Below are positions 3,471 through 25,681 of a stretch of 33,703 nt of DNA, piece after piece. The notes below the pieces were generated by a model. The model worked only from the letters and a program-made list of their open reading frames with translations, was not told the origin of the DNA and did no database searches. Source of the stretch: an uncultured Truepera sp. (GTDB taxonomy: Bacteria > Deinococcota > Deinococci > Deinococcales > Trueperaceae); the NCBI GenBank assembly GCA_902806425.1, contig CADCWP010000336.1:1-33703 (forward strand), read 5' to 3'. How positions within the stretch are numbered: position 1 is the first letter of the stretch; every line of letters starts with the position of its first letter. Made by a program: the position numbers and the translations under genes.

Positions 3471-4466
3471 GTGCTCAGCTTTATCTTAAAAAGGATTGCC
3501 TACGCTCTGCCGACCCTTGCCCTGATCAGCTTTTTTTCTTTTCTGGTTATCGAGCTCCCTCCCGGCGACTACATGACTACGTTGCAAGGCACCCTCGTCT
3601 CACAGTCGGGTATGTCGCCGGGGGAGGCGCGCGCGCTGACAAACCAGATGCGCGAGGAGTATGGCCTCGACCAACCCTTTCTGGTGCGCTACGGTGAGTG
3701 GATAAGCGCTATCGTTACCCGTGGCGACTTCGGTTTCTCGTTTATCTTCCGCCGCCCGGTGGGCGAGATTATCTGGCAGCGCCTGGGGATGACGCTCCTC
3801 GTCGCGCTCTGCGCGCACGTCATTTCGGTCGTGATCGGCGTTCTTATCGGCATCTACTCGGCCACGCACCGCAACACATTCTTAGACCACATCTTCACCG
3901 TTTTGGCATTTATAGGCTTTTCAGTCCCCAACTTTTTCTTGGCGCTGCTGATCATGTATGTGCTCGCGTTTGGGTTCGGACAGCATGTGGGCGGCTTTTT
4001 CAGCCCCGACTACGTCATCGCCCCCTGGAGCTGGGCTCGTTTCGTGGACTTTCTCAAGCACTTCTGGATACCCGTCGTGGTCGTCGGACTCGCCGGAACG
4101 GCGCGCAACATGCGGGTTATGCGCGGCAACCTGCTCGACGTCTTGAACCAGAACTACGTGCGAACGGCGCGCGCAAAGGGCTTGTCCAACCGCCTGGTGG
4201 TGTTTAAACATGCTGTCCGCAACGCGGTTCAGCCTATCGTCATGTATCTGGGGGTGGCGCTACCCTTTTTGCTTCAAGGGGAGATTGTCACGAGCGCCGT
4301 ACTCAACCTGCCCACGATGGGACCTGTTTTTTTACAATCGCTGGTATCCCAGGATATGTATCTAGCGGGCTCGTTTCTGATGCTGCTGGCCGTCGTGCTG
4401 GTCATCGGCAACCTGCTCGCGGATATCGCGCTCGTCTGGGTGGACCCGAGGGTGAGTTATGATTGA
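3471..4466 (+). CDS. ABC transporter permease, DppB/OppB family
   Basis: This is the first membrane subunit of the importer, 331 residues. I place the start at GTG 3471 (MLSFILKRIAYALPTL), which matches the usual DppB opening and has a GGTGG-type site before it. A GTG at 3420 would put the intercistronic hairpin inside the protein. About six membrane segments are visible, and the cytoplasmic EAA loop that contacts the ATPase is NYVRTARAKGLSNRLVVFKH at roughly residues 224-243. The periplasmic part around FGFSFIFRRPVGEIIWQRL is typical. Its stop overlaps the next gene by 8 nt, so translation is probably coupled. No ATPase gene follows; those subunits must be encoded elsewhere or upstream of the window. 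Confidence 0.9.
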   Translation: MLSFILKRIAYALPTLALISFFSFLVIELPPGDYMTTLQGTLVSQSGMSPGEARALTNQMREEYGLDQPFLVRYGEWISAIVTRGDFGFSFIFRRPVGEIIWQRLGMTLLVALCAHVISVVIGVLIGIYSATHRNTFLDHIFTVLAFIGFSVPNFFLALLIMYVLAFGFGQHVGGFFSPDYVIAPWSWARFVDFLKHFWIPVVVVGLAGTARNMRVMRGNLLDVLNQNYVRTARAKGLSNRLVVFKHAVRNAVQPIVMYLGVALPFLLQGEIVTSAVLNLPTMGPVFLQSLVSQDMYLAGSFLMLLAVVLVIGNLLADIALVWVDPRVSYD

Positions 4467-17811: not shown

Positions 17812-18642
17812 CTACCATGTGCGGTTTATGGTGGCGACGTCTTCGTCATAATCGCCGTCGCCTGCGTCTTCCGCTGCTTCCAACTCGCCTTCTAACTCAT
17901 CTTCATCGTCGGGGTCGTCGTAGACGCTGGCCTCGAGGTCGTCTTGGCGCACGTTTGAATCGAGCGCGGCGCGCACTTCGGGTAGGAGCGATTCGATGTC
18001 CTTGGGTGGCGGCGGCAGCGTCACATAGAGGCGGTGGCCCGAGAGTCCGGTGCCGCGCGACCCCAGATAAAGAACGGTCTCGACGAGCGCAGCGTCGTGT
18101 TTGGGGTCCGACGCAGGCCGCGACGGCACCGCGACGTTGACGCTGAGCGTGTTATAGCGCGCCTCGAAGCCCGCTGCCATACGGGTGATGGCCCCGCGCA
18201 CCGCGACCATGTGCGGCTCGGTGGCGCTTTTGGGTGGCGAGACGATGACCAGCCAAGCGTCGTCTAAAAGCCGCGCCGACGCCTTGAGCATCAGAAACGT
18301 AGATTTAAGGTCTTCGTCGATAAGCTCGCTGAATTCACCTTCGCCGAGTTTGGCGAAGTAGGTGTTGGATTCAAAAGAAGCGACGTGTACAACACCGGAA
18401 AGGTCGCCGAAGATTTCAAAAACTTTCTCGAAGGTGTTGCGAACGTCTAGCGGCACCGACATGTCAGCCTGTATGGGGATCGCCTGACCACCCAACTCCT
18501 CGATCTCGGCGGCGGTCTTCGAGGCGAGCGTAACGTCCTTGTCGGCGCACACCACATCGTAGTCGGCCTGACCATACGCGAGCGCGATGGCGCGGCCAAA
18601 ACCCTGCCCGACATTGGTAACGAGAACGACGCTGACACCCAT
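17812..18642 (-). CDS. Degenerate short-chain dehydrogenase/reductase with acidic tail
   Basis: The 276-residue protein has a Rossmann fold of the SDR type: TNVGQGFGRAIALAY stands for the usual TGxxxGIG loop, with the first Gly changed to Asn, and a nucleotide-binding pocket follows (VVCADKDV, ADMSVPLDV). VVHVASF replaces the NNAG motif. The catalytic Tyr-x-x-x-Lys is absent: the region reads TEPHMVAVRGAITRMAAGFE. After about residue 235 there is an acidic tail (YDDPDDEDELEGELEAAED). It is therefore probably not an active dehydrogenase and may be a dinucleotide-binding or interaction protein. It precedes nrdR by 10 nt on the same strand. A TATGCT box at 18651-18656 ends 9 nt from the ATG, close to leaderless. 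Confidence 0.72.
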   Translation of the reverse strand: MGVSVVLVTNVGQGFGRAIALAYGQADYDVVCADKDVTLASKTAAEIEELGGQAIPIQADMSVPLDVRNTFEKVFEIFGDLSGVVHVASFESNTYFAKLGEGEFSELIDEDLKSTFLMLKASARLLDDAWLVIVSPPKSATEPHMVAVRGAITRMAAGFEARYNTLSVNVAVPSRPASDPKHDAALVETVLYLGSRGTGLSGHRLYVTLPPPPKDIESLLPEVRAALDSNVRQDDLEASVYDDPDDEDELEGELEAAEDAGDGDYDEDVATINRTW

Positions 18643-18703
18643 AACGCTTCAGCATACAGTTTTTTAGGTCCGCGCACAGCGTTCAGCCTCTCATCCAGGG
18701 GGT

Positions 18704-18709
18704 TACAAT
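18704..18709 (+). promoter_or_regulatory. -10 box of the accDA promoter
   Basis: TACAAT ends 7 nt before the ATG at 18716, which opens a 9-codon mini-ORF and not accD. GTTCAG at 18681-18686, 17 bp upstream, is a weak -35. The box lies back to back with the divergent dehydrogenase-like gene. Confidence 0.55.
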
Positions 18710-18715
18710 AGGCGC

Positions 18716-18745
18716 ATGACCGTGAGGAACATTCCGTGGCGCTAG
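18716..18745 (+). CDS. Putative leaderless mini-ORF overlapping the accD start
   Basis: ATG 18716 to TAG 18743-18745 encodes MTVRNIPWR. The ATG is exactly at the predicted transcription start, so it could be read as a leaderless start. The accD GTG (18736) lies inside it in another frame, with GAGGA (18724-18728) as ribosome-binding site also inside. Ribosomes on the mini-ORF would stop 7 nt past the accD start and could restart there. No translation evidence exists; the case rests on position alone. Confidence 0.4.
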
Positions 18746-19632
18746 AGCGGTGGTTTCGCCGCAAGCGTCCGACGCGCAGCGACGACAACAGCCCCGCTGG
18801 TTTGTGGCTGAAGTGTGACGAGTGTAACGCGCAGATCTACCGCAAAGACCTCGAGAAAAACCTCTACCTTTGTACCGAGTGCGGTCATCACTACAAGATG
18901 CCCGCCGACGCGCGGGTGGCGATGCTGGCCGACGCCGGAAGTTTCGAGCGGTGGTCGGGTACGATTAAAGGGGCCGACCCGCTCGCTTTTGAGGATACCG
19001 AGCCGTATGTCAAGCGCCTCGAGCGCGCCGCCGAGCGGCAAAAGCGCCCCGACGCCATTCTCACGGGTGCCGCCTCGCTACAGGGCGAGCCGGTCGCCCT
19101 AGCTGTGATGGACTTTTTTTTCGCCGGGGGCTCGATGGGTTCGGTTGTTGGTGAGGAGATCGCCCGCGCCGCTGAGCGCGCCGCCCGTGAGGGGCGCTCG
19201 CTCGTGACGGTCGCCGCGTCGGGTGGGGCGCGGATGCAGGAGGGCGCGCTGTCGCTTATGCAAATGGCGAAGACGACGGTCGCTTTGGAGGCGCTCTCAA
19301 GGGCGAAACTCCCCTTTATCAGCGTCCTCACCGATCCGACGACCGGCGGCGTGACGGCGAGCTTTGCGACGCTCGGCGACATCATCGTTTCCGAACCGCA
19401 GGCGCTCATCTGCTTTGCCGGTCCCCGCGTGATCCAGCAGACCATCAAACAAGACCTGCCCGAAGGCTTTCAGCGCGCCGAGTTCTTGCTGCAAAAGGGC
19501 ATGTTGGACGATGTGGTTACGCGCCCGAACCTCAAGGCGCGGCTGGCCCTCTATCTAAGTCTCCTGCGCGGTACCCTGACCCCGACCGCTACGGCTGCGG
19601 TAGGGGGTGAGCCGGGTGGCGCTGCCGTTTGA
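18736..19632 (+). CDS. accD: Acetyl-CoA carboxylase carboxyltransferase subunit beta
   Basis: AccD with AccA transfers the carboxyl group from carboxybiotin to acetyl-CoA, the first committed step of fatty-acid synthesis. The 298-residue protein begins [12 protein letters not shown] and carries the zinc finger CDEC...CTEC at residues 31-53. The carboxyltransferase core has [31 protein letters not shown] and [11 protein letters not shown]. The start is GTG 18736, supported by GAGGA 7 nt upstream and by the usual AccD N-terminus. It overlaps accA by 17 nt. A leaderless 9-codon mini-ORF precedes and overlaps its start. Confidence 0.96.
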
Positions 19633-20569
19633 AAAACCCATCGACGACCTTTCCGACCGCATCGAGGACATGCGCGCCTACGCCAGCGAGCAGAATATCG
19701 ATCTTTCAGAGGAGATTTCGCTTTTAGAGGGCCGCTTAGAGAGGCTTCAACACGACGTTTTTGAAAACCTTACCCGCTGGCAGCGGGTTCAGGTCGCGCG
19801 AGCACCGGGCAGGCCGACCGCGCTCGACTATATACAGAGCGTTTTCGAGACCTTCACCGAGCTGCACGGTGACCGCACCCTGGGCGACGACAGCGCTATG
19901 GTCACGGGTTTGGCGCTTTTGGGTGGGCGCAGCGTGGTCGTGATCGGACAGCAAAAGGGGCGCGACACAAAGGAGAACATCGGGCGCAACTTCGGTATGG
20001 CGCACCCGTCGGGCTACCGCAAGGCGATGCGGATGTTTAACATGGCCGACAAGTTCGGCCTGCCGGTGGTAACGCTGATCGACACGCCGGGGGCGTATCC
20101 GGGCGTCGCCGCCGAGGAGCAGGGGCAGGCGTGGGTCATCGCCGAGAGCATCCAGCGGATGAGTCAGCTTAAAGTTCCGGCGGTCGCGGTGGTGATCGGC
20201 GAGGGCGGCTCAGGGGGCGCGCTGGCGGTCGGCGTCGCCAACCGGGTGCTGATCTTAGAAAACGCCATCTACTCGGTGATCAGCCCCGAGTCGTGCGCGG
20301 CCATCTTGTGGCGCGACGCCTCGCAGGCCCCGAAAGCGGCTGAGGCGCTTAAACTCACCGCCGGTGACCTTTTAGAACTTGGCGTCGTCGACGGGGTAAT
20401 TAAAGAGCCCGTGGGCGGCGCGCACCGCGACCCACAGGCGACCATGCGCTGTGTGGGGGCGCGGCTCGAAGAGGAACTCGGTGCGCTCTCGAGCCTGAGC
20501 GAAACCGAACTCCTAGAACAGCGTTACGCCCGTTTTAGAAATATGGGCAGGCTTGAGAGCGTAACGTGA
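19616..20569 (+). CDS. accA: Acetyl-CoA carboxylase carboxyltransferase subunit alpha
   Basis: The alpha half of the carboxyltransferase, 317 residues from GTG 19616. An in-frame GTG at 19607 is an alternative, but the GGGGGTGAG before 19616 is the better ribosome-binding site. The N-terminal coiled coil ([18 protein letters not shown]) is followed by [20 protein letters not shown], the carboxybiotin-binding [34 protein letters not shown] and [12 protein letters not shown]. Gene order accD-accA with overlap is common in Deinococcota. The AccB/AccC subunits are not in the window. The following 184 bp show no clear terminator. Confidence 0.96.
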
Positions 20570-24566: not shown

Positions 24567-24575
24567 TCATCAAGC
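24561..24575. terminator. Palindrome holding both stop codons of convergent genes
   Basis: GCTTGAT-C-ATCAAGC is a 7-bp dyad with a 1-nt centre. The TGA of the flavoprotein gene (24564-24566) and, on the other strand, the TGA of topIB (24572-24570) occupy mirror positions. No T-runs follow, so termination is uncertain. Confidence 0.35.
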
Positions 24576-25667
24576 AGGTTGCGCTGCCGGTGCTGCGGCC
24601 CGCGCCTCGAGAAACGTCAGCACCGCCACCTCTTCGACCCGCAGCCCCTCGGGGAGCGCGTTCGTAACCGCCCTGCTCACGTCGGCCAACTCGCCCAGCG
24701 AGCCCTCGAGGTAGCAACTGATAACCTCCGGGTGAACGTAGCTCTTGCGGCAGACCGCCGGGGTGTTCCCCAACTTTTTGGCGACCTCTTTAATCGCCGC
24801 CGTGACGTTCTTCGTTGCCTGCGCCTCCGTCTCGAACCGCTCGGAACCCGTCAGCGAAAACGTCGCCAGCACGGTTCCGGCCCAGGTGCGAAAGTCCTTG
24901 GCGCTGACCTCCTCGCCGGTGATGCGCTTTAGGTAGTCGTTGACGTCGCCCGAATCGACGTCCTGCCGCTTCCCGTCCTCGTCAAGGTACTTAAACAGCT
25001 CATAACCCGGCAGCTCCTCGCACTTCTTGACGATGCGGGCGATTTGTGGGTCACGCAGCTCGATGTCCCACTCCTTGCCGCTCTTGCCCCTGAACTCGAA
25101 GGCGACCGACGTGCCCGCTACGTCCACGTGCTTTTTTCGCATGGTGGTGAGCCCGTAGGAACCGTTTTCCTCTGCGTAGGTTTTGTTCCCGACGCGGATG
25201 AGCGTCGTTTCCAGAAGTTTGACGACCGCCGCCAGCACCTTGTCTTTAGGCAGGCCGGGAAGCTTCAGGTCTGCCTGCACGCGCCGCCGGATGTGCGGCA
25301 GCAACCTGCCGAAGGTGAGCATGTGCTCGAACTTGGCCGTATCTCTGACCCGGTGCCACTCGGGGTGATAGAGGTACTGCTTGCGCCCCCGTTCGTCGCG
25401 CCCGGTCGCTAAGATGTGGCCGTTCTCGCTCGGGCAGATCCACACCTCGGTCCAGGCCGGGGGGATAGCGAGGGCCTCGAGGCGCTTCCTTAAGCGTTTG
25501 TCAGTGATACGCTTTCCGTCTACGCCCAGGTAGCTCCACCCTTTGCCGGAGCGTTTGCGCCCCAGTCCAGGCTCCTCGTCGGACACGTAGCGGAGTTCGG
25601 CCTGCCGAACGACCTCGGCGAGCGCGGCGGTGGGTGGGGTGATGGTCTCAGTGGCGGTGACGCTCAT
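24570..25667 (-). CDS. DNA topoisomerase IB (eukaryotic/poxvirus type)
   Basis: A 365-residue type IB topoisomerase that relaxes supercoils through a 3'-phosphotyrosyl intermediate without ATP. Core motifs are AIPPAWTEVWICPSENGHIL, RVGNKTYAEENGSYGLTTMR with catalytic Arg, RGKSGKEW with the catalytic Lys region, DFRTWAGTV with the second Arg, and SYVHP with the nucleophilic Tyr at about residue 310. This family is found in Deinococcus (D. radiodurans TopIB, about 346 residues) and scattered bacteria. ATG 25667 has only a weak GAGTAGG before it. A leaderless 5-codon mini-ORF ends in an ATGA overlap with this ATG, suggesting coupled initiation. Confidence 0.93.
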   Translation of the reverse strand: MSVTATETITPPTAALAEVVRQAELRYVSDEEPGLGRKRSGKGWSYLGVDGKRITDKRLRKRLEALAIPPAWTEVWICPSENGHILATGRDERGRKQYLYHPEWHRVRDTAKFEHMLTFGRLLPHIRRRVQADLKLPGLPKDKVLAAVVKLLETTLIRVGNKTYAEENGSYGLTTMRKKHVDVAGTSVAFEFRGKSGKEWDIELRDPQIARIVKKCEELPGYELFKYLDEDGKRQDVDSGDVNDYLKRITGEEVSAKDFRTWAGTVLATFSLTGSERFETEAQATKNVTAAIKEVAKKLGNTPAVCRKSYVHPEVISCYLEGSLGELADVSRAVTNALPEGLRVEEVAVLTFLEARAAAPAAQPA

Positions 25668-25681
25668 AACCTACTCGACAT
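25664..25681 (-). CDS. Putative leaderless mini-ORF coupled to the topoisomerase IB start
   Basis: On the minus strand, ATG TCG AGT AGG TTA TGA runs from 25681 to 25664 and encodes MSSRL. Its ATG is exactly 7 nt after the TAAACT box, so it could be a leaderless start, and its TGA overlaps the topIB ATG as ATGA. The arrangement parallels the mini-ORF at accD. Only position supports it. Confidence 0.4.
   Translation of the reverse strand: MSSRL

Follow-up and report, generated by a model that had tools for sequence, protein, structure and literature searches.

Organization of the accD locus

The DNA analyzed here, referred to as the window, is a stretch of 33,703 nucleotides from a Truepera-genus MAG. 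On its forward strand lies accD (18736-19632), the gene of the acetyl-CoA carboxylase carboxyltransferase beta subunit; the ORF matches the Pfam families Carboxyl_trans and Zn_ribbon_ACC, starts with GTG (18736-18738), and has an N-terminus, MALER, that aligns in relatives. It is followed on the same strand by accA (19607-20569; Pfam ACCA), for which the start codon is putative. Upstream of accD, a short-chain dehydrogenase/reductase (SDR) gene, recognized from its ORF and Pfam match, runs divergently on the reverse strand (17812-18642).

Immediately in front of accD on the forward strand, a −10 box, TACAAT (18704-18709), is separated by six bases from the ATG of a predicted leaderless upstream ORF (uORF) of nine codons (18716-18745). 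The uORF reads ATG (18716-18718) ACC GTG AGG AAC ATT CCG TGG CGC TAG (18743-18745). It is out of frame with accD, with an offset of 2, and it spans the accD GTG, so that its last base falls 7 nt past that codon, at accD position +10. The Shine-Dalgarno (SD) sequence of accD, GAGGA (18724-18728), is located 7 nt 5′ of the GTG and likewise lies within the uORF. The stop codon TAG is made by the third codon of accD, CTA, and the GAG that follows it; the same codon is present in the congener G001 and in G041, a genome from a sister family. On re-reading of the sequence, the original prediction's description of TACAAT, the ATG, the mini-ORF and the accD GTG proved exact to the base, and its statement that the mini-ORF includes both the SD and the GTG of accD and ends 7 nt past the latter was confirmed. 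The counterpart uORF of G001 (MIGSLMIIGLIAKKLMNPTVRETRWR, then the stop) is longer, with spacing, frame and stop as in the window.

In a single sequence, an open frame of nine codons is unremarkable: 81% of leader shuffles of the window are likewise open. The openness of frames judged by shuffling is weak evidence.

Evidence for a leaderless start

Genome-wide backgrounds were taken from 1.6 Mb of G001 (1-1.6 Mb) and 0.8 Mb of G008 (1-0.8 Mb), using gene calls from a purpose-written, home-made finder. Among the called genes of G001, TANNNT is most frequent 5, 6 and 7 nt upstream of ATG (56, 92 and 55 genes) and of GTG (21, 42 and 22 genes), although these peaks are somewhat sharpened, as the signal itself was used in choosing gene starts. 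At the other tabulated offsets, TANNNT is found at most 22 times for ATG and 5 times for GTG, and TTG starts are nearly without it. G008 is alike: ATG and GTG starts have their peak at 5-7 nt, and TTG starts have none. A peak that accompanies ATG and GTG but hardly TTG is what leaderless initiation leads one to expect. Published work on the phylum finds 6-7 bp between its −10 motif and leaderless ORFs, and shows that promoters with a −10 only are normal in Deinococcota (PMC12340547).

In the window, the 6 nt between the −10 box and the ATG coincide with the leaderless-gene peak in G001. The accD mRNA thus probably begins at, or within about a base of, the ATG at 18716. The original prediction had placed the transcript start on this very ATG; the leaderless 6-nt spacing on which this depends holds and recurs across genera, the start itself being deduced from the −10 box.

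A consensus scan gives a different preference. It finds a second sigma-70-like match, CTGACA-17-TACAGT (18632-18660), which it ranks above the TACAAT site and which offers the better −35 match; if transcription started from there or elsewhere, the mini-ORF would be internal to the transcript and not leaderless. However, TACAGT is replaced by TACCGG in G001, whereas TTACAATAG, which includes the TACAAT box, is shared with G001. Between accD and the SDR gene, a second conserved motif is explained by the SDR gene's own −10, TATGCT (18656-18651), which is the part of the upstream match that is conserved. Given, in addition, that −10-only promoters are normal in the phylum, a start elsewhere is extremely improbable, and the upstream promoter was rejected because the congener has not preserved its −10. 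The SDR gene appears to be leaderless or nearly so itself (TATGCT, 8 nt, ATG), and this arrangement is kept in G001.

Conservation of the uORF start codon

Start codons were counted in 36 accD leaders from 17 genera with a recognizable −10 box, drawn from the Trueperaceae and the sister families f2 and f5; the boxes were picked by pattern, and six Trueperaceae genomes with no confidently recognizable −10, or with a contig end, were left out of the count. Searching the whole class for relatives yielded no genome beyond the 111 of the order search. In 12 of the 17 genera, the accD −10 is followed by ATG or GTG (RTG) at a distance of 5-7 nt (5 nt in seven genera, 6 nt in three, 7 nt in two), as opposed to 0-3 genera at any other single offset and a background of about 2-4% per offset. 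A further case, at offset 6, is provided by G052 of family f5, and g14, which has two overlapping −10 boxes, has an ATG at offset 5 if TAGTAT is taken as the box. The flanks of these starts have diverged (AGGCGC-ATG, AGCGTG-ATG, GCGGC-GTG, ACTCGA-GTG and GAATTT-GTG), leaving RTG alone in common. Once relatives are compared, RTG at leaderless spacing occurs more often than by chance.

The RTG of accD does not seem to follow from a rule of promoters, since other leadered genes display no clear excess of RTG at the same distance: in G001, its frequency in them is 1.9-4.6% at offsets 5-7 versus about 2.7% elsewhere. For that reason, the idea that promoters favor RTG in general was rejected. These numbers also bear on a simpler reading, namely that accD has an ordinary short leader starting near 18716, with an RTG present by coincidence or because transcripts favor it as their first triplet, and with initiation led by the SD. 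The well-spaced GAGGA and the several lineages without RTG would suit such a leader, and the counts come from a related family and are not independent. Nevertheless, it leaves the lack of clear RTG enrichment in other leadered genes, the recurrence of RTG despite strongly diverged flanks, and the co-variation of frame and stop described below without explanation, and we regard it as very unlikely.

The start codon is not universal. In g16, in most of g7 and in g10, a −10 is present with no RTG at leaderless spacing; in g16 and most of g7 the start codon has apparently been lost. In g13, a leaderless-positioned ATG opens an ORF that ends far upstream. The absence of RTG at this spacing from g16, most of g7 and g10 means that the device is dispensable. 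As judged from relatives whose sequences are not independent and from an AccD tree with weak deep nodes, it would be common and old in the group, and not essential. As for the conservation of ATG, frame and overlap on which the original prediction was to stand or fall, it holds for most lineages, the closest relative among them; g12, g14, g16, g7 and g10 are exceptions.

In family f4 (L157, L158, L155 and L171), accD itself looks leaderless, with TAAGAT or TACAAT 7-8 nt before its ATG, which suggests that the mode of accD initiation differs between families.

Conservation of frame and stop

Between 20 and 92 nt separate the uORF start from that of accD, but within each group this distance is constant modulo 3. 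It amounts to 20 and 71 nt in g1; to 49, 40, 40, 43, 55, and 55 or 67 nt in g17, g4, g3, g5, g15 and g8, respectively; to 38 and 35 nt in g12; and to 38, 38, 35 and 44 nt in f5, where the 35-nt case (G048) has a GTG 9 nt after the −10 and the values for G048 and G052 were read off the sequence. Among the leaders compared, none of the accD-overlapping uORFs is in frame 0. By parsimony on the AccD tree, leaders with the uORF underwent at least 11 length changes with 3 frame changes, versus 7.3 expected if two thirds of random length changes shift the frame (binomial p=0.009); leaders without it underwent 8 length changes, 4 of which changed the frame.

The stop goes with the frame: in most lineages, the frame used by the uORF is the one that meets a stop shortly after the accD start. 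Frame-1 uORFs end with TGA at +11 via CTT GAR, those of g1 and f2 end with TAG at +10 via CTA GAG, and all four f5 genomes have an ATGA or GTGA stop at +4. The f5 stop arises from the second codon of accD, which in this family (L233, L168, L169 and L170) encodes Thr instead of Ala (ATG/GTG-ACN). In the groups stopping at +4, +10 or +11, the other frame is without an early stop. CTT is found in 6 of 6 frame-1 genera versus 2 of 11 uORF-less lineages (p=0.002, by a statistic that ignores shared descent); in G001, the share of CTT among Leu codons is 6% within gene bodies and rises to 18% for codons 2-4. Two groups, g12 and g14, have kept the start with no early stop, and their frame-2 uORF of 37-54 codons continues for over 70 nt beyond the start of accD. 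With the uORF running so deep into accD, no ribosome delivery would be possible there. Elsewhere, stops close to the start of accD recur in other genera and in the sister families, which supports the earlier suggestion that a ribosome loaded on the 5′ ATG would finish within reach of the accD start.

The uORF peptide and leader structure

The uORF peptides are unrelated between genera, and the differences among three close g8 uORFs are, by eye, all nonsynonymous. A conserved peptide was rejected, as none was found across the compared uORFs. Like an attenuator leader peptide, the accD uORF is a short ORF before a biosynthetic gene. It differs in containing no amino-acid run or regulatory codon run and in having no conserved peptide; furthermore, the accD leader has no Rfam match, that of the window contains no terminator-like stem, and the first 85 nt of the window leader show no unusual fold, folding no better than shuffles (z 0.08). 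An attenuator or riboswitch was rejected on the grounds of no Rfam match, no significant fold and no terminator.

A proposed model for ribosome delivery to accD

We propose, with somewhat more confidence than doubt, that the leaderless uORF delivers ribosomes to accD by termination and reinitiation. A ribosome would first take the 5′-terminal ATG at 18716, as on a leaderless mRNA, and translate a short peptide of no importance. On termination, its P site would rest on CGC (18740-18742), 4 nt past the GTG at 18736-18738, and GAGGA would lie to its rear. A short move back, aided by the GAGGA within the uORF, could then allow the ribosome or its released subunits to reinitiate at the accD GTG. 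In the frame-1 relatives the backward step would be 5 nt, and at an RTGA junction the move would be 2 nt forward. The uORF would thereby serve as a ribosome-delivery, or translational coupling, device for accD. Delivery by this route would account for the keeping of start, frame and stop while the peptide is free to change. The position of the start, the out-of-frame overlap, the keeping of the frame, the matching of the stop and the non-conservation of the peptide can be read from the compared sequences; from them we infer the transcription start, translation of the uORF, reinitiation, and a positive sign of the effect.

The opposite sign would be expected if the uORF were an occluding decoy, whose leaderless-initiating ribosomes compete with accD initiation and lower it. 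In the window, a 70S ribosome on the 5′ ATG would cover GAGGA, which lies 9-13 nt downstream. Such a decoy would also suit g12 and g14, with their uORFs deep in accD, as well as the absence of frame 0 among overlapping uORFs. Yet in other leaders, with 35-92 nt between the two starts, the SD stays free during uORF initiation, and a decoy has no need of stops at +4, +10 and +11 or of the genome-wide enrichment of RTGA reported below. On balance, a decoy is unlikely.

Alternatively, the 5′-terminal RTG may only bind ribosomes, for loading or mRNA protection, with translation of the uORF incidental. The precedent is ptrB of E. coli, in which a start-stop mutant retained about 40% of expression while an AUG knockout retained less than 8% (PMC4965119), and this would explain why RTG is kept in g12 and g14 in spite of their having no early stop. 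Neither the keeping of the frame nor the matching of the stop is needed for ribosome binding, however, and we consider this explanation distinctly unlikely.

Were ribosome delivery through the uORF correct, accD output, and hence entry into fatty-acid synthesis, might be tied to the rate of leaderless initiation, such that conditions favoring 70S-type initiation would hand ribosomes from the uORF to accD. This extension is speculative and we give it little credence; if true, it would link the state of translation to membrane-lipid supply in Trueperaceae. The original prediction's idea that the mini-ORF could set accDA expression according to the ratio of free 70S ribosomes is likewise no more than a possibility.

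Relation to known systems

Leaderless mini-genes of mycobacteria are presumed to pass ribosomes to a downstream gene in the manner proposed for accD. Shell et al. (2015) described leaderless "coupled" and "overlapping" small ORFs in mycobacteria, and illustrated with an example that the linkage can be conserved when the peptide is not (PMC4633059). The window uORF resembles this class in running over the start codon of the gene that follows, in a different frame, and the accD uORFs resemble it in that the linkage is conserved and the peptide is not, with the exceptions of g12, g14, g16, g7 and g10. The RTGA tetramer of the "coupled" type is absent from the window, where the stop ends at +10 and the overlap is 10 nt, which places the window uORF in the "overlapping" class; the tetramer is found in f5 accD. 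The accD case differs in belonging to another phylum and in being predicted from sequence alone, followed over many genera at one gene.

Within the phylum, 85 leadered mRNAs with a 5′-ATG/GTG were reported for Deinococcus deserti (de Groot et al. 2014, as cited in PMC11596967), the stops of these ORFs lying upstream of, or overlapping, the gene start. Those transcripts were identified by RNA-seq and discussed as sources of peptides, whereas the accD uORF comes from sequence comparison. In E. coli, 5′-uAUGs on SD-led mRNAs (such as those of ptrB, rcnR and iscR) alter downstream expression in either direction (Beck et al. 2016; PMC4965119). The accD leader would be alike in combining an ATG (18716), predicted to be 5′-terminal, with an SD-led coding sequence (GAGGA and GTG); 70S binding was measured for the E. 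coli mRNAs, while the accD leader is known from sequence and conservation.

Our literature search found no report of an accD uORF for Truepera. The predicted accD uORF is a new, well-conserved case of a kind reported in mycobacteria and Deinococcus deserti, and not a new kind. Its contribution lies in a comparison of many genera from three families, which gives evidence that a leaderless uORF can keep its position, frame and stop while its peptide changes, as a delivery role predicts. Since the uORF is present in some natural accD variants and missing from others, accD is a good gene in which to test that role.

Leaderless-positioned uORFs at other genes

Leaderless-positioned uORFs ending at +1 to +14 belong to 31 leadered genes in the 1.6 Mb of G001, whereas equally wide control offsets give 6-12; for the 0.8 Mb of G008, the numbers are 10 and 1-6. 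The excess over controls is about 3.5-fold for the two genomes, and makes accD part of a wider class. RTGA/TGATG junctions are enriched among the overlapping uORFs (22/41 vs 205/739, p=0.0007; 9/17 vs 98/394, p=0.02). Examples, identified by our own reading of N-termini, include the genes for the DNA polymerase beta clamp, Ffh and a 2-oxoacid dehydrogenase E2; some uORFs in these counts may be real small genes. Tens of leaderless-positioned uORFs per Truepera genome are predicted, and the "leadered" genes of the phylum may in part be fed by leaderless initiation.

Elsewhere in the window, a coupled candidate at 3721-3792 was dropped, as the downstream permease frame appears to reach upstream of its ATG at 3789. 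A second mini-ORF, of five codons, is located on the reverse strand at 25664-25681 (TAAACT, 6 nt, ATG TCG AGT AGG TTA TGA). It ends on an ATGA shared with the ATG of a bacterial DNA topoisomerase IB gene (24570-25667, reverse strand), an architecture like that of accD with an RTGA junction. The topoisomerase IB gene is present in 5 of 39 family genomes, and two of its matches, L299 (G014) and L300 (G018), contain one in-frame stop each (TGA and TAA, respectively).
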